Source of the DNA: Aquipuribacter sp. SD81 | GTDB taxonomy: Bacteria; Actinomycetota; Actinomycetes; Actinomycetales; JBBAYJ01 | DNA length: 64,000 nucleotides | Reading direction: 5' to 3' | NCBI RefSeq assembly: GCF_037153975.1 | Contig: NZ_JBBAYJ010000003.1 | Coordinates: forward strand, 62,001-126,000 | Shown here: positions 4,593-19,997 of the stretch, one piece after another | Position numbering within the stretch: position 1 is the stretch's first letter | Layout of the letters: the number at the start of each line of letters is the position of its first letter | Program-made: the position numbers and the translations under genes | Notes under the pieces: model-generated | Told to the model about the DNA's origin: nothing | Databases searched by the model: none | What the model saw: the letters and a program-made list of their open reading frames with translations, nothing else

Positions 4593-5351
4593 ATGACCAC
4601 TCTCGAGATCCGCGACCTGCACGTCAGCATCACCGCCGACGGCGAGGCCAAGGAGATCCTCAAGGGCGTCGACCTCACGGTCCGCTCGGGGGAGACCCAC
4701 GCGATCATGGGCCCCAACGGCTCCGGCAAGTCGACGCTCGCGTACTCCATCGCCGGGCACCCGAAGTACGAGGTGACGAGCGGGTCCGTCCTGCTCGACG
4801 GCGAGGACGTCCTGGGGATGTCCGTCGACGAGCGCGCCCGCGCCGGCCTCTTCCTCGCCATGCAGTACCCCGTCGAGGTCCCCGGGGTGTCGGTGTCGAA
4901 CTTCCTCCGCACCGCCAAGACCGAGGTCTCCGGCGAGGCGCCGGTGCTGCGGCACTGGGTCAAGGAGGTCCGCGAGGCGATGGAGGGGCTCAAGATCGAC
5001 CCGGCCTTCGCCTCCCGCAACGTCAACGAGGGCTTCTCCGGCGGCGAGAAGAAGCGTCACGAGATCCTCCAGATGAAGCTGCTCAAGCCGCAGATCGCCG
5101 TGCTCGACGAGACCGACTCCGGCCTCGACGTCGACGCGCTGCGCATCGTGAGCGAGGGCGTCAACGACGTCCGCTCCGAGCTCGGTCTCGGCGTGCTGCT
5201 CATCACGCACTACACGCGGATCCTCCGCTACATCAAGCCCGACTTCGTTCACGTGTTCGTCGACGGCCGGATCGCCGAGCAGGGCGGTCCGGAGCTCGCC
5301 GAGCGCCTGGAGAACGAGGGCTACGACCGCTTCGTCACCGCGAACGCCTGA
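4593..5351 (+). CDS. sufC: Fe-S cluster assembly ATPase SufC
   Basis: SufC (252 aa) is the ABC-type ATPase of the SufBC2D complex. It energises conformational changes of the SufB-SufD pair and is not part of a transporter. Walker [10 protein letters not shown] is at residues 40-48. The signature [13 protein letters not shown] and Walker [16 protein letters not shown] are both in the SufC-specific form. The ATG at 4593 follows a purine-rich SD. Only 10 bp separate it from sufT, where most actinobacteria carry sufS and sufU. Confidence 0.95.
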
Positions 5352-5730: not shown

Positions 5731-6402
5731 GTGCCGCCCGTGACCGCCTCGCCCGCCGCGAGCCGGTTCCTCGAGGTGGCACCGGGCCGAGTCGTCGGCT
5801 GGGTCGGGCGCTACGTCGCCGCGCGCGACGGCGCCGTGACGGCGCGGGCGGTCGAGGACGGCCTGCTGCTCACGCCCGCCGAGGGCGGCTCGGCGCTCCT
5901 GCGGCTGCTCCGGCCCGACGGCTGGGCGTCGTCGTCCGGTGCCGTCGACGCCTCCGCCGTCGCCGCGCACCTGGCCTCGGCCGCCTCGGTGTCCGTCCCG
6001 CTGCTCGTGGTCGCCGCCCGCCGCGGCGGCTACGGCGTGGCGGTGGTGCGGGACGGCCGGGTGCTCGCGGCCAAGGTCGGCCGCCGCTACGTGCAGGGCT
6101 CCACCGCCGCGGGCGGGTGGTCGCAGCAGCGCTTCGCCCGCCGCCGCGGCAACCAGGCCGACAAGCTCGCGCGCGACGCCGGCGACGTGCTGCGCGGCGT
6201 CCTCGCCGCGGCGCTGCCCGTCGCACCCGTCGGGGTGGCGGTCGCCGGCGACCGCGGTCTCGTCGACGGCGTCCTCGACGCCTCGCCCGCCGCGGACCTG
6301 CCCCGCCTCGGCCCGCTCGAGGTCGGCGAGCCGCGCCGCGCCGACCTCGACGAGCTGGCCCTGCGGGTCCTCGCCGTCCGGGTCACCGTCCACGACGCCT
6401 GA
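5731..6402 (+). CDS. acVLRF1-family peptidyl-tRNA hydrolase (ribosome rescue)
   Basis: This 223-aa protein belongs to the actinobacterial VLRF1 group, relatives of eukaryotic Vms1/eRF1 that release nascent chains from peptidyl-tRNA on stalled large subunits. The diagnostic loop GGWSQQRFARRRGNQ is at residues 128-142, with the presumed catalytic Gln at 132-133. GTG 5731 is taken as start and GTG 5740 is an alternative. Its stop is followed after 8 nt by the first of four 20-bp repeats. The family assignment is from the motif; the function is from family knowledge. Confidence 0.8.
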   Translation: MPPVTASPAASRFLEVAPGRVVGWVGRYVAARDGAVTARAVEDGLLLTPAEGGSALLRLLRPDGWASSSGAVDASAVAAHLASAASVSVPLLVVAARRGGYGVAVVRDGRVLAAKVGRRYVQGSTAAGGWSQQRFARRRGNQADKLARDAGDVLRGVLAAALPVAPVGVAVAGDRGLVDGVLDASPAADLPRLGPLEVGEPRRADLDELALRVLAVRVTVHDA

Positions 6403-6410
6403 GCCGCGCG

Positions 6411-6490
6411 CGACCGGGACCCCTCCCGCGCGGCTGGGACCTTCTCGGCACGCCTGGGACCTCTCCCGCCCGACTGGGACGTCATCGGGC
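6411..6490 (+). repeat. Four tandem 20-bp repeats, left array
   Basis: Four units with exact 20-bp phasing (6411, 6431, 6451, 6471) share the core CGNCTGGGAC followed by a CTTCTC-like half. GGGAC occurs at 6416, 6436, 6456 and 6476. The period is not a multiple of three and lies outside genes. The array begins 8 nt after the acVLRF1 stop. Its mirror image lies at 7621-7680. Two GGACGTCC palindromes, also 20 bp apart (6514, 6534), continue into the 3' end of the next gene. Confidence 0.8.
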
Positions 6491-6520
6491 TCGCAGCGGC
6501 CAAGCCACCCCGAGGACGTC

Positions 6521-7429
6521 CTACTCGCTGCGCGGACGTCCCACACCGGCGGCCACCTGCTGACGCATGAGTGCCGTGAGGGCGTCGACGACACGTTCCG
6601 GCCGCCGCATCATCGTCCGGTCCACCTGGAGCACGAGCCAGCCGGCCAGTCGGATGTCGTTGTGCCGGGCGCGGTCCACCACGTACTGACGCGGGTCGTC
6701 GTGCACGGCGCCGTCGTACTCGCAGCCGACCCGGAGCTCCTCCCACCCGAGGTCCAGGCGGGCGACGCGCCTGCCGTGCAGGTGCACCGGGCACTGGGTA
6801 CGCGGGCGGGGCAGCCCCGCGCGCACGACGAGCAGGCGCAGACGCGTCTCGCGGAACGAGTCGACGCCGTCCTCGACCTCGGCGAGCACCTCCCGGGCGG
6901 AGCGCACGTCGCGGAGCCCGCGCCAGCGGTGCTGGTCGGCGCGAGCCGTCTCGGCGGGCAGCCCGGTGGCGCGCAGGAGGGCGTCGACGCGCGCGACCCT
7001 CGTGTCCGCCGGCAGGGCGCGCGTGCCGGTCCCGCGGGCGAGGTCGAACGCCGTCCGCGACGGAGCGGTGGCGCGACCGAGCGGCGTGTCGACCACCTCG
7101 TCGGGACGCAGGGTCGCGAGATGGGGGACGACCTCGGCCCGACGTCGGATGCGGTGGGGGCGGTCGATGCCCACCACGACTGCCTCCGCCGGTTCCGCGA
7201 AGCGTGCGCCGAGCGCCCAGGCCGCGCTCGGCCCCAGCAGCACGTGGTCGTCGCCGTCGACGGCGCGGAACGCCCTGATGCGGCTGCCGTGCGTCATCGG
7301 CAGGGCGGCCGACTGCACGGCGCCGTGGAGCACGCGGCGGTAGCGAGGGCCGCGCAGCGCGTCCGGTGTCTCGAGCCCGAGTGCCTCGCTGGTGCGGAAA
7401 GGCGTGGAGAAGAGGTCGCGGCGGTCCAT
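6521..7429 (-). CDS. AbiEi-like / DUF559 (Vsr-fold) nuclease-domain protein
   Basis: This is a 302-aa protein of unknown role, of a type often present in many copies in actinobacteria. The N-terminal half resembles AbiEi-like proteins (FRTSEALGL, a Gly/Pro-rich start, and a central TPLGRATAPSRTAFDLAR motif). The C-terminal 110 residues are a DUF559/Vsr-like PD-(D/E)XK domain: RLDLGWEELRVGCEYDG with Asp/Glu ligands, then DRARHNDIRLAGW. ATG 7429 fits the family; ATG 7459 is possible. Its last codons and stop lie inside a GGACGTCC repeat unit, and inverted repeat arrays flank it on both sides. No second toxin-antitoxin gene is adjacent. Confidence 0.72.
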   Translation of the reverse strand: MDRRDLFSTPFRTSEALGLETPDALRGPRYRRVLHGAVQSAALPMTHGSRIRAFRAVDGDDHVLLGPSAAWALGARFAEPAEAVVVGIDRPHRIRRRAEVVPHLATLRPDEVVDTPLGRATAPSRTAFDLARGTGTRALPADTRVARVDALLRATGLPAETARADQHRWRGLRDVRSAREVLAEVEDGVDSFRETRLRLLVVRAGLPRPRTQCPVHLHGRRVARLDLGWEELRVGCEYDGAVHDDPRQYVVDRARHNDIRLAGWLVLQVDRTMMRRPERVVDALTALMRQQVAAGVGRPRSE

Positions 7430-7556
7430 CCTTCGAGCCTCGTCCGCCTGCCCGCGCATCCCTGGCCGCGGCCGCGCAGGCTGTGCACGACGCGCCCGTC
7501 AGGCGCCTGTGCGCACGGCGCGAGTGCCTCCCGCCCCCGCCCTGTCGCCGTGCAAC

Positions 7557-7609
7557 GTCCCAGCCACAGCCCCGGCCCCTCGACGAGTGGGACGTCTTCT
7601 GGGTCGCAG
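7557..7609. repeat. Degenerate copies of the TGGGACGTC repeat core
   Basis: One minus-oriented core (GTCCC at 7557-7561) and one plus-oriented core (TGGGACGTC at 7588-7596, followed by TCGCAG at 7604-7609) lie between the DUF559 gene and the right array. The plus copy resembles 6474-6496 at the other side of the gene, including the TCGCAG end. Confidence 0.5.
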
Positions 7610-7620
7610 GCGCTGCTGGA

Positions 7621-7680
7621 CCCCGACGGCGTCCCAGCCGGTAGGAGAAGGCCCCAGGCGCGGGGAGAAGGTCCCAGTCG
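7621..7680 (-). repeat. Three tandem 20-bp repeats, right array (inverted)
   Basis: Read on the minus strand, three units start at 7680, 7660 and 7640 with the same CGNCTGGGAC core (one GGGGC variant), and two are followed by CTTCTCC. Phasing is exactly 20 bp. The orientation is opposite to the left array, so both point inward at the DUF559 gene. A further minus core (GTGGGACC) lies at 7703-7710, just after the ecfT stop. Confidence 0.78.
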
Positions 7681-7722
7681 GGGCCGATGTGGGTGCGGGG
7701 GGGTCCCACAACCCGGATGGGG

Positions 7723-8379
7723 TCAGTCGACGAGGCCGCGGGCGGCGAGGGCGTCGCCGGTGGCGCGGGCGTGGCCGACCGCGCGGACGACGGTCGGGGT
7801 GACGAGCGCGCGCACGTCGCGGCCGCGACCGCGTGCGCGGGCGGCGTCGCGGGCCTGGACCGCGACGTCCCACAGCACGTCGACGCTGCGGACCGCGAGG
7901 GCGAGGGTCAGCGCGACCCGGTCCGGGTGCAGGTGCGCGCGCAGGCCGGGCACGCGTCGCAGTGGCGCGACGAGCGAGGCCACGCTGTCGAGCAGCCGGT
8001 CCGTCGGGGTGGTCACCGACACCAGCCCGGCGAGCAGCACGAGCCCGAGCAGGTCGAGGACCACCTCGAGCCCGCGCGCGGGCGCCCCGACGAGCACCTG
8101 GTAGACCCCGAGCACCACGAGGACGGGCGCGAGACGCAGCACGAGCCCGCGCCACACCCGCGGCGGCGTCCGCACCCACGCGTGGCCGGCGACCGCGAGC
8201 GCGAGCACCGCGGCCCCGAGCGGCAGGGCGGCCGCGGGCAGCAGGCCGTCGACCCGCACCGCCACCACCACGACGGCGGCGACCGCGAGCGCTCCGAGCG
8301 CCACCGCCGCCGGCAGCCGGTGCAGCGGCGTGCCCCCGGGCCGGTACGCCGGGACGAGCGCCGGGCGCCGCATGCTCAC
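7723..8379 (-). CDS. ecfT: ECF transporter transmembrane subunit EcfT (BioN-like)
   Basis: This 218-aa CbiQ/BioN-type membrane protein couples the ATPase to the BioY substrate subunit. It has about five hydrophobic segments (residues 22-45, 50-66, 80-97, 105-120 and near 150) and the coupling Ala-Arg-Gly motifs in ARDAARARGRGRD and near the C-terminus ALAARGLVD. The GTG start overlaps the ecfA stop as GTGA. It is the last gene of the bioY-ecfA-ecfT operon. Confidence 0.85.
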   Translation of the reverse strand: MSMRRPALVPAYRPGGTPLHRLPAAVALGALAVAAVVVVAVRVDGLLPAAALPLGAAVLALAVAGHAWVRTPPRVWRGLVLRLAPVLVVLGVYQVLVGAPARGLEVVLDLLGLVLLAGLVSVTTPTDRLLDSVASLVAPLRRVPGLRAHLHPDRVALTLALAVRSVDVLWDVAVQARDAARARGRGRDVRALVTPTVVRAVGHARATGDALAARGLVD

Positions 8380-17106: not shown

Positions 17107-18504
17107 TCAGGACGCCTCCGACACCGACGACATGTGCAGGTCGGCGACGCGGAGGGCGGGCGCGGCGGCGCGCGGCAGCCAGTCGCCGAGCTCGCGGGGC
17201 AGGCACACCCCGGTGCCCCCGGCCCCGAGCACCCGCGAGAGGAGGGAGTGGGGGGAGTCGTTGAAGCGGAAGTTCGTCGTCGAGCCGACGACCTCGCCGC
17301 CCTCGACGACGTACACCCCGTCCCGGGTGAGGCCCGTCACGAGGAGCGTCTGCTCGTCGACGACGCGCACGTACCACAGGCACGTGACGAGCAGCCCCCG
17401 GTCGACGCCGGCCACGACGTCGGCGGTGGCGCCCGTCGCGCCGTCGACCTCGACGACGACGTTGTCCGCGAACGGCGTGTGCGCGAGGCCGGCCAGGCCC
17501 GCGGTGTGCCGGCTGGAGGGCAGCGCCGCGAGCAGGCCCGCGTCGAGGTAGCGCGTGCCGGGCACGGCGAGGCCGGTGTCGAAGACCGAGGTGAAGGCGT
17601 CGCTGCTCGTGGCCGACACGACGTCGGAGGTGCCGAGGACGGGGTGGTGCGGGTCGTCCCGGACCGTCAGGGGCACGTCGGTGAGCCGCTCGCCGACGCG
17701 CGTGCCGCCGCCGGGCCGCGAGAAGGCCGTGCGGCCCTCGGCCGCGCTGCGGGCGTCGCCGGACAGCAGCCAGTACGCGAGGAGGTCCGCGGCCGCCGAC
17801 GGCGACAGCACGGTCTCGTGCCGGCCGGGCAGCACCTCGACCCGGCGCGCCTGCCACTCGAGGCCCTGGGCCACCTCGGCGGCCAGCGCCCGCAGGTCCA
17901 CGTCGCGGCCGAGGTCCCGCGCGCCCGTGCCGGCCCACGCCGAGCGGGAGCGGGCGTGGCTCTTGCCGTTGAGCTCGACCGTGCCGTACGGCTCGACGGA
18001 GCGGTGCCGGGTGCCGGCGCTCGTCGCCGTCCACGTCGTCGTCACCGTGTGCTCGGCGAAGCCGAAGAGCTCCCGGCCCTCGCCGTCGGCCTCGGCGAAC
18101 AGCTCGCCGAGGACGGCCGCGGTTCCGGTGAGCGCCTCGGGCGGCACCGGCGTCGCCGGCTCCGCGAAGCCGCTGCCCGCCGGCCCGGGCACGAGCGCCG
18201 CGCCGTCCTCGGCCGGGCGGGCGCCGGCGGTCTCCGCGAGCGCGTCCGCGACGAGCCGCTCGACGTCGGCGGCGTCGGTGACGGCCCGGGTGAGGCTGCC
18301 GAGCGCCCGGCCGCCCGGGACGTCCCGGACGACCGCGACGGACAGGCTGCTCTCGGCGGTCGTGCCGCCCGTCGTCAGCTGGTTGGCGGCCCAGCGCAGG
18401 TTCGTGGAGCCCTCGTGCTCCACGACGGCGACGGCGTCGTCGCTGCCGAGGCGGCGGGCGGCGGCCAGGGCGACCTCGACGGCCTGCTCGGGGGTGAGGC
18501 TCAC
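17107..18504 (-). CDS. tldE: TldE/PmbA-family metalloprotease subunit
   Basis: This 465-aa member of the modulator-of-gyrase family is the partner of TldD in a heterodimeric protease that degrades or trims peptides. It lacks the HExxxH metal motif found in TldD, as expected for TldE, and shows the family C-terminal core RDGVYVVEGGEVVGSTTNFRFNDSP in part. The GTG 18504 start overlaps the tldD stop (GTGA), so equimolar synthesis is likely. Confidence 0.86.
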   Translation of the reverse strand: MSLTPEQAVEVALAAARRLGSDDAVAVVEHEGSTNLRWAANQLTTGGTTAESSLSVAVVRDVPGGRALGSLTRAVTDAADVERLVADALAETAGARPAEDGAALVPGPAGSGFAEPATPVPPEALTGTAAVLGELFAEADGEGRELFGFAEHTVTTTWTATSAGTRHRSVEPYGTVELNGKSHARSRSAWAGTGARDLGRDVDLRALAAEVAQGLEWQARRVEVLPGRHETVLSPSAAADLLAYWLLSGDARSAAEGRTAFSRPGGGTRVGERLTDVPLTVRDDPHHPVLGTSDVVSATSSDAFTSVFDTGLAVPGTRYLDAGLLAALPSSRHTAGLAGLAHTPFADNVVVEVDGATGATADVVAGVDRGLLVTCLWYVRVVDEQTLLVTGLTRDGVYVVEGGEVVGSTTNFRFNDSPHSLLSRVLGAGGTGVCLPRELGDWLPRAAAPALRVADLHMSSVSEAS

Positions 18505-19997
18505 GCGCCCTCCTCCTCGGTGTTGAGGACCGCGACGTCGGTGACGACCACCGCCGGGCAGCCGTGGCTGACGGGCGCGGCCTGGCCGGGCTGGCCCTTG
18601 CCGCAGTTGAGCGCACCCTGCAGCGACCAGGTGCCGGGGCCGCCGACCGCGGCCAGCCGCGCCCAGAACTCCGGCGTGCTCGCCTGGTAGGCGACGTCGC
18701 GGAGCATGCCGTCGAGGCGCCCGGAGCGGATCCGGTAGAACCGCTGGCCCGTGAACTGGAAGTTGTACCGCTGCATGTCGATCGACCACGACCGGTCGCC
18801 GACGACGAGCACGCCGTCCTCGACGCCCGCGACGAGGCCGTCGAGGTCCGCACCGGCCGGGTCGGCGGCCAGGCTCACGTTGGGCATGCGCTGCAGCGGG
18901 GCGTGCAGGGGCCCGTCGGCGTACGCGCAGCCGTTGGACGCGGTGCCGCGCTCGGCGGCCATGGCCCGGTCGAGCTGGTAGCCGACGTGCACCCCGTCAC
19001 GCACGACGTCCCAGCGCGTCGCGGGCACGCCCTCGTCGTCCCAGCCGAGGCTCGAGAGCCCGTGCGGCTCGGTGCGGTCGCCGGTCACGTTCATGAGGGG
19101 GCTGCCGTAGCGGCGCGAGCCGAGCCCGTCCGGGGTCGCGAAGGACGTCCCGGCGTACGCGGCCTCGTAGCCGAGGGCCCGGTCGAGCTCGGTCGCGTGC
19201 GCGACGGACTCGTGGATCGTCAGCCACAGCTGGGTGGGGTCGATGACGAGGTCGTAGCGCCCCGGGTCGACCGACGGGGCGGCGAGCTTCTCGGCCGCCA
19301 GCGGCGCGAGGGTGGCCGCCTCGGCCCCGCAGCCGGCGGGGTCCAGCGCGTGCTCCCAGCCGCGGGCCGCGGGCGGCACGAGGCTGCGCATGGTGTCGGC
19401 ACGGCCGTCGTCGGCGACGACGAGCGCCGTGAGCTCCGGCTGCAGCCGGACCCGCTGCTGCACGGTCCGGGTGCCGGCGAGGTCGGCGTACAGCTTCTGC
19501 TCCTTGACGCAGTGCAGCCACGCGTCGGCGTGGGTGCCCCCCGTCGCGAGGACCTCCCCGCACCAGGACAGCAGGAGCTCGGCCTGCTCGGCCGCCGGCA
19601 CCGCGAAGGGGTCGACGTCGTAGCCGGAGACCCACGTGCCCTGCTGGACGGGTGCGTCGGCGAGCTCGACGGGCCGGCGGACGAGGGGGCGCGCGACCCG
19701 CGCGCCCCGCAGCGCGAGGCGGGCCGCGTCCCGCGCGGCCGCGCCGGTGAGGTCCCCCGTGGCCGCGAAGCCCCACGCGCCGTCGAGCACGACCCGCACC
19801 GACACCCCCGCGCGGACGACGTCGGAGACGCCCTCGACGGCCCGGTCGCGGACCCGGACGACGCGGTCGCGGACCCGGTGCACCCGCACGGCGCCGTAGG
19901 AGGCGCCGGCCGCGCGGACCTCGTCGAGCGCCGCCCCCACGACGTCGTCGAGCGGGAGGGCGAGGAAGTCGGCGTCGACGCCGCGGCTGGCCGGCAC
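18501..19997 (-). CDS. tldD: TldD-family metalloprotease
   Basis: TldD (498 aa) is the catalytic subunit of the TldD/TldE protease. The zinc motif HESVAHATELD (HExxxH) is intact near residue 262, and the C-terminal block with NCGKGQP and SHGCPAVVV matches the family. GTG 19997 was chosen because a TAGCCT -10 ends 7 nt upstream. In enterobacteria the pair processes microcin B17 and degrades CcdA; no peptide substrate gene is apparent next to this pair. Confidence 0.88.
   Translation of the reverse strand: MPASRGVDADFLALPLDDVVGAALDEVRAAGASYGAVRVHRVRDRVVRVRDRAVEGVSDVVRAGVSVRVVLDGAWGFAATGDLTGAAARDAARLALRGARVARPLVRRPVELADAPVQQGTWVSGYDVDPFAVPAAEQAELLLSWCGEVLATGGTHADAWLHCVKEQKLYADLAGTRTVQQRVRLQPELTALVVADDGRADTMRSLVPPAARGWEHALDPAGCGAEAATLAPLAAEKLAAPSVDPGRYDLVIDPTQLWLTIHESVAHATELDRALGYEAAYAGTSFATPDGLGSRRYGSPLMNVTGDRTEPHGLSSLGWDDEGVPATRWDVVRDGVHVGYQLDRAMAAERGTASNGCAYADGPLHAPLQRMPNVSLAADPAGADLDGLVAGVEDGVLVVGDRSWSIDMQRYNFQFTGQRFYRIRSGRLDGMLRDVAYQASTPEFWARLAAVGGPGTWSLQGALNCGKGQPGQAAPVSHGCPAVVVTDVAVLNTEEEGA

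Follow-up and report, generated by a model that had tools for sequence, protein, structure and literature searches.

REP elements are among the commonest repeats in bacterial genomes. RAYT is, to our knowledge, the only partner enzyme of these elements that has been identified. The REP/REPIN and RAYT systems described previously (PMC2817692, PMC3116915) serve here as the main comparison. A second group, the CGTC-tagged REPs, has been described in Proteobacteria and four other phyla but not in Actinobacteria; these repeats are "apparently" without a dedicated transposase and have no known partner gene (PMC3733652). AbiEi-family proteins bind inverted repeats of 23 bp, and both AbiEi and Rv2827c bind such repeats in their own promoters (PMC7319586). 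No description of a link between DUF559 genes and repeats was found in the literature searched, from which subscription papers and preprints were excluded.

The window (the whole stretch of DNA analysed, 64,000 nucleotides of genome G000) encodes a DUF559/Vsr-like protein between two palindromic elements, here called A and B. The features of the locus are as follows.

5731..6402, plus strand: acVLRF1, flanking gene (PF18859), given for context
6411..6490, plus strand: left arm of palindrome A, four phased 20-bp units (CGNCYGGGAC...)
6471..6527, no strand: 57-bp core of palindrome A, CGACTGGGACGTCATCGGG ... CCCGAGGACGTCCTACTCG
6521..7459, minus strand: DUF559/Vsr-like gene, intact, 312 amino acids
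6531..6550, minus strand: outer unit of palindrome A, GCCGGTGTGGGACGTCCGCG, within the last codons of the nuclease gene
7584..7640, no strand: 57-bp core of palindrome B, CGAGTGGGACGTCTTCTGG ... CCCCGACGGCGTCCCAGCCG
7621..7680, minus strand: outer arm of palindrome B, three phased 20-bp units
7723..8379, minus strand: ecfT/CbiQ-like flanking gene (PF02361), given for context

The original prediction described two arrays of 20-bp units in exact register, both facing the gene. The units are found exactly where it placed them (6411, 6431, 6451 and 6471 on the plus strand; 7680, 7660 and 7640 on the minus strand), but they do not form one-way arrays. When the copies are aligned, each array proves to be half of a palindrome with a 57-bp inverted-repeat core (6471-6527 and 7584-7640; consensus CGASTGGGACGTCNTCGGGSTC - loop - GANCCCGANGACGTCCCASTCG), from which the 20-bp units extend outward in phase. 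The left arm of palindrome A begins 8 bp past the acVLRF1 stop codon, and the right arm of its core extends into the 3' end of the nuclease gene. The related GGACGTCC units reported at this 3' end are present and can now be identified as the opposite arm of palindrome A; the corresponding arm of palindrome B lies at 7584-7600. The arms 6431-6492 and 7619-7680 together make up a 62-nt inverted repeat (77% complementary). The two hairpins of the window have DNA fold z values of -0.65 and -0.43 and are degenerate, and the orthologous element of the sister genome G001 forms an almost perfect hairpin with a z of -7.3. Elsewhere in the window, positions 18317-18326 and 19014-19044 carry a short GGGACGTCCC-type palindrome and, on the minus strand, a pair of CTGGGAC motifs 30 bp from each other.

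In the predicted structure (model pLDDT 93), residues 9-196 of the gene product form an AbiEi-like module and residues 199-303 a Vsr-like nuclease domain fused to it. The predicted fold of the first part matches 6y8q (Z 10.6), and that of the second matches I-Bth0305I (3r3p; Z 12.4), 3hrl (Z 11.8) and Vsr (Z 9.6). The acidic residues E204, D236, E247 and D262, together with R265, are invariant or nearly so among homologues. The gene call is correct, but the Pfam matches of the window protein are below the curated cut-offs (14.4 and 14.7 bits versus 20.6 for PF04480 and 38.2); its assignment as a nuclease rests on the predicted structure. The homologues L210 and L171 pass the PF04480 cut-off, and the homologue L202 matches AbiEi PF09407 at 46 bits. 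No AbiEii toxin gene lies beside the window gene, the neighbours of which are acVLRF1 and ecfT. As AbiEi-family proteins bind 23-bp inverted repeats, the 20-22-bp units are plausible binding sites for the AbiEi-like module, although there are no binding data. Unusually fast evolution of the gene is not supported, its product being 79% identical to the G001 counterpart versus 77-83% for several neighbours.

To determine how general the arrangement is, 60 DUF559 homologues from 40 genomes of the order were combined with the three loci of the genus. About 6 kb was fetched on each side, the 350-bp flanks were locally aligned and a score of 18 or more was taken as a pass; 134 genes from the same regions served as controls. 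Matched repeats are present in both flanks of 47/63 DUF559 homologues versus 3/134 control genes (Fisher 7.6e-28, a value that is indicative only, the homologues being related). Two of the three control matches come from signal-peptide genes that are syntenic, and the third is a weak call. The 16 DUF559 genes that fail among the 63 include some that are truncated, and 4/5 named records, such as those of Arthrobacter and Tsukamurella described below, pass. Many homologues, in many families, have near-perfect palindromes on both sides, and the units around AbiEi-Vsr genes are about 20-33 bp, inverted or palindromic. The claim that a nuclease-like gene is bracketed by its own repeat family thus not only holds at the window but generalises: an AbiEi-Vsr (DUF559/MTES_1575) gene between inverted or palindromic repeats is a widespread actinobacterial gene-plus-repeat partnership of which the window is one member. 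We regard the association of gene and repeat as close to certain. That ordinary intergenic hairpins happen to lie beside the gene with no functional link is very improbable in view of these counts, the private repeats of each gene lineage and a repeat type that tracks the protein, even though copies also occur away from the gene and the window hairpins are degenerate.

Each protein lineage has its own repeat sequence, and when the protein changes, the repeats in both flanks change with it. Of 1027 non-syntenic pairs, those with protein identity of at least 40% have similar repeats in 15/65 cases, versus 1/962 below this value. L197, L202 and L224 occupy syntenic sites in three families, and there the two flanks have changed in concert. 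The closest homologue of the window protein in G002 (58% identity) lies at a different site, adjoining a maltokinase gene, with CGACTGGGACG...CGTCCCAGTCG palindromes on either side. This site is syntenic with G000 and G001 sites that carry another DUF559 gene (L171 and L174, respectively) and TGTCGACG-type repeats, and in the protein tree the G002 gene clusters with the genes of the window type (support 99/98). Since both the protein and the CGACTGGGACG repeats of G002 are window-type at the L171/L174 site, the repeat follows the protein and not the site.

The acVLRF1-ecfT junction was to be compared with that of a strain lacking the gene. Beside acVLRF1 in G002 neither the gene nor the element is seen, but the downstream neighbour differs, which disqualifies this as a clean empty site. 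The comparisons yielded neither such a site nor a target duplication, the orthologous gaps in G000 and G002 holding other palindromes or having lost synteny. Comparison with the G001 flanks likewise resolved no junction (gaps with other palindromes or not alignable).

Further copies of the repeats, mostly as inverted pairs capable of forming hairpins, are dispersed outside genes and can number in the hundreds per genome. One DUF559 clade has the unit GTGATCATGCA, which is present in 413, 384, 347, 150, 106, 90, 72, 68, 34 and 24 copies in ten of 396 genomes, and in 0-16 copies in the remaining 386 (control: about 0). A search of 50 genomes, selected by copy number, found the matching DUF559 clade in 8/10 high-copy genomes, and in 8/8 of these the gene flanks carry GTGATCATGCA. 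The exceptions are G034 and G066 (150 and 34 copies), where no matching flank was found at the DUF559 genes examined (L314-L323). Clade members in eleven low-copy genomes have no GTGATCATGCA in the flanks examined, only other units such as GTGATCATGG, or none. The dispersed copies and the DUF559 flanks share one consensus in G006 (GTGATCATGCACGTTCGCCCC), and they share GTGATCATGCACGCCAG in G024. Dispersed copies are intergenic in 36/45 cases and typically form inverted pairs; one that was folded has a z of -8.1. The G066 copies continue into GTGATCATGCAGAAG, which is similar to the flanks of a distant G009 gene (L209).

Two named genomes show the same arrangement. In Tsukamurella tyrosinosolvens NCTC13231, hairpins flank the DUF559 gene (WP_170181047.1) on both sides and occur in eight replicon records of this strain but in no other among 72,556 plasmid records. 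The 64-bp unit has conserved 22-bp arms and a variable loop of about 20 bp; as the flanks of its copies are unrelated (0.28 and 0.26 identity), it is a unit with sharp edges. Of its dispersed copies, 5/7 lie in convergent 3'-3' gaps. The hairpin of Arthrobacter sp. ERGS1:01 (WP_054009319.1) occurs 15 times in one record and is absent from the rest of the collection.

The window-type element is itself a small dispersed family, two copies of which bracket the nuclease gene in both G000 and G001. A search for two CGNSTGGGAC units in phase, with 1 mismatch allowed, gave nine matches in the genome of the window and 21 in G001, with 1 control match in all; this strict pattern missed G002, in which the inner stem is different. 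With up to 3 mismatches, the palindrome core is found four times in G000, seven times in G001 and not at all in the control. Only 4 copies of the family are thus present in G000, two of them away from the gene, between rplA and rplJ. G001 has one window-type palindrome between rplA and rplJ and others behind several genes. The rplA-rplJ palindromes (G000 C1:30392-30671, L103 about 4893-5172; G001 C1:448536-448632, L102) might influence read-through between these ribosomal operons. The repeats of the window are few and decayed, and the system is probably decaying in this genome. A search for the exact window core in 84,980 named genomes and in viral contigs returned 50 stretches, of which those inspected are coding-type chance matches without flanking units. 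No occurrence of the exact core beyond its genus was found, although near relatives of the window may be absent from the collection. This core is not common to other DUF559 genes, each gene lineage having its own repeat. Because of these private repeats, the refutation first proposed, absence of the window core near other DUF559 genes, had to be rephrased.

Several further arrangements were observed in these genomes. At L099:5063-6809 (G001 C8), an arsR and arsenate-reductase-like pair is bracketed by two window-type palindromes, forming a cassette-like unit without DUF559; in G000 an arsC-like gene adjoins rlmB, differently arranged and with another palindrome. At L284 about 1960-2120 (G000 C12), behind a gene that bears a window-type element in G001, there is a GGGACG palindrome of a different family (TGGGACGTCGCGCAC), and G002 has a third palindrome type at this gap. 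At L171:5700-7060 (G000 C18), another DUF559 gene of this genome lies between long tandem arrays of ~33-bp units (TGCGTTYNTGTCGACG...), with about six copies downstream that are inverted relative to those upstream.

The proposed model for the interaction of gene and repeat is as follows. The AbiEi-like winged-helix module would bind the repeat unit, as inferred from the binding of 23-bp inverted repeats by the AbiEi family (PMC7319586). The Vsr-like domain would then nick or cut at the repeats. Repair or copying of the cut DNA is inferred to spread hairpin units into the gaps behind genes, and the same process would keep the flanking copies alike. Overall, the system would work in the manner of REP/RAYT, with a restriction-fold nuclease replacing the HUH transposase. 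The best explanation available, and the one towards which we lean, is that in such a partnership the repeats are spread or maintained by the nuclease; mobilisation is inferred, and no insertion or excision event was seen in the loci compared.

The alternative that survives best is that the AbiEi-like part is an autoregulator with operators in the upstream repeats, the downstream and dispersed hairpins being bidirectional terminators or a regulon and the nuclease acting elsewhere, for example in defence. AbiEi and Rv2827c do bind inverted repeats in their own promoters (PMC7319586), sister species have different palindromes in the same gap, and the preference of the copies for 3' gaps, including the convergent gaps of Tsukamurella (5/7), would suit terminators as well. 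Against this reading, repeats flank the gene both upstream and downstream, and the copies reach 413 per genome, are restricted to a genome or lineage and have sharp edges and unrelated flanks, a picture typical of dispersed elements and not of a regulon. We consider this alternative unlikely but not negligible.

Less likely still is that the protein is a free-standing homing endonuclease that targets the palindrome and copies itself into existing palindromes, leaving one on each side, while the palindromes spread by other means. The G002 gene, at a different site but bracketed by the same repeat type, would fit such a process, as would the closeness of the nuclease domain to the homing endonuclease I-Bth0305I (Z 12.4), which is a resemblance of fold only. 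Homing leaves unexplained why repeat copy number tracks the matching gene clade, L197, L202 and L224 stay at one site across three families, and no gene-less site with a single palindrome has been shown to be a target.

A broader form of the preferred reading, that the nuclease maintains and spreads its repeats, is that REP-like selfish systems include a second class, of independent origin, in Actinomycetota. In this class an AbiEi-Vsr nuclease, not a transposase, would maintain and spread its own palindromes, with many lineages, several per genome, each with private repeats, and with the window as a nearly extinct member. On this proposal we are evenly divided. If it is true, an unrelated nuclease has the same anatomy as RAYT systems and such partnerships arose more than once; it would also account for many of the dispersed hairpins in actinobacterial genomes. 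The results suggest a different function for some of the genes that are annotated in these genomes as "AbiEi family antitoxin" or "DUF559", and they provide a large natural set of pairs of protein and recognition site for tests of specificity.

Each known system resembles this one in part. The window protein shares the predicted two-domain AbiEi fold (residues 9-196) with the antitoxins S. agalactiae AbiEi and M. tuberculosis Rv2827c (PMC7319586), but it is fused to a nuclease domain and has no adjacent AbiEii toxin gene, and the repeats flank the gene on both sides and occur across the genome. With Vsr and I-Bth0305I-type nucleases it shares the predicted C-terminal fold and the conserved acidic residues; unlike them, the gene is neither a mismatch-repair gene beside a methylase nor intron-borne, and it is bracketed by its own repeats. 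CGTC-tagged REPs are likewise dispersed palindromes in 3' or intergenic space without a RAYT, but they have no known partner gene (PMC3733652).

The REP/RAYT analogy made in the original prediction is borne out by the flank matches, the coevolution and the link of copy number to gene clade. A gene between inverted copies of a palindromic repeat is seen for the 47/63 homologues and the window gene. High-copy palindromic extragenic repeats, often in inverted pairs like REPINs, are seen for GTGATCATGCA and for the Tsukamurella and Arthrobacter hairpins. Protein and repeat coevolve (15/65 versus 1/962 pairs, and the G002 case), and gene presence tracks repeat abundance in 8/10 high-copy genomes, with two exceptions. 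The differences are that the enzyme is an AbiEi-Vsr protein and not a Y1 HUH transposase, that the repeats inspected have no GTAG tag and that the system is actinobacterial. Y1_Tnp (PF01797) is absent from all 23 genomes searched (0/23), the same search having given matches in 5 control genomes, and a RAYT is thereby ruled out as the mobiliser in these genomes. As the anatomy, coevolution and copy-number correlation fit REP/RAYT but the HUH transposase is absent, the system appears to work like REP/RAYT without being a member of it. The pairing of gene and repeat looks like an undescribed counterpart of REP/RAYT built on an unrelated enzyme.
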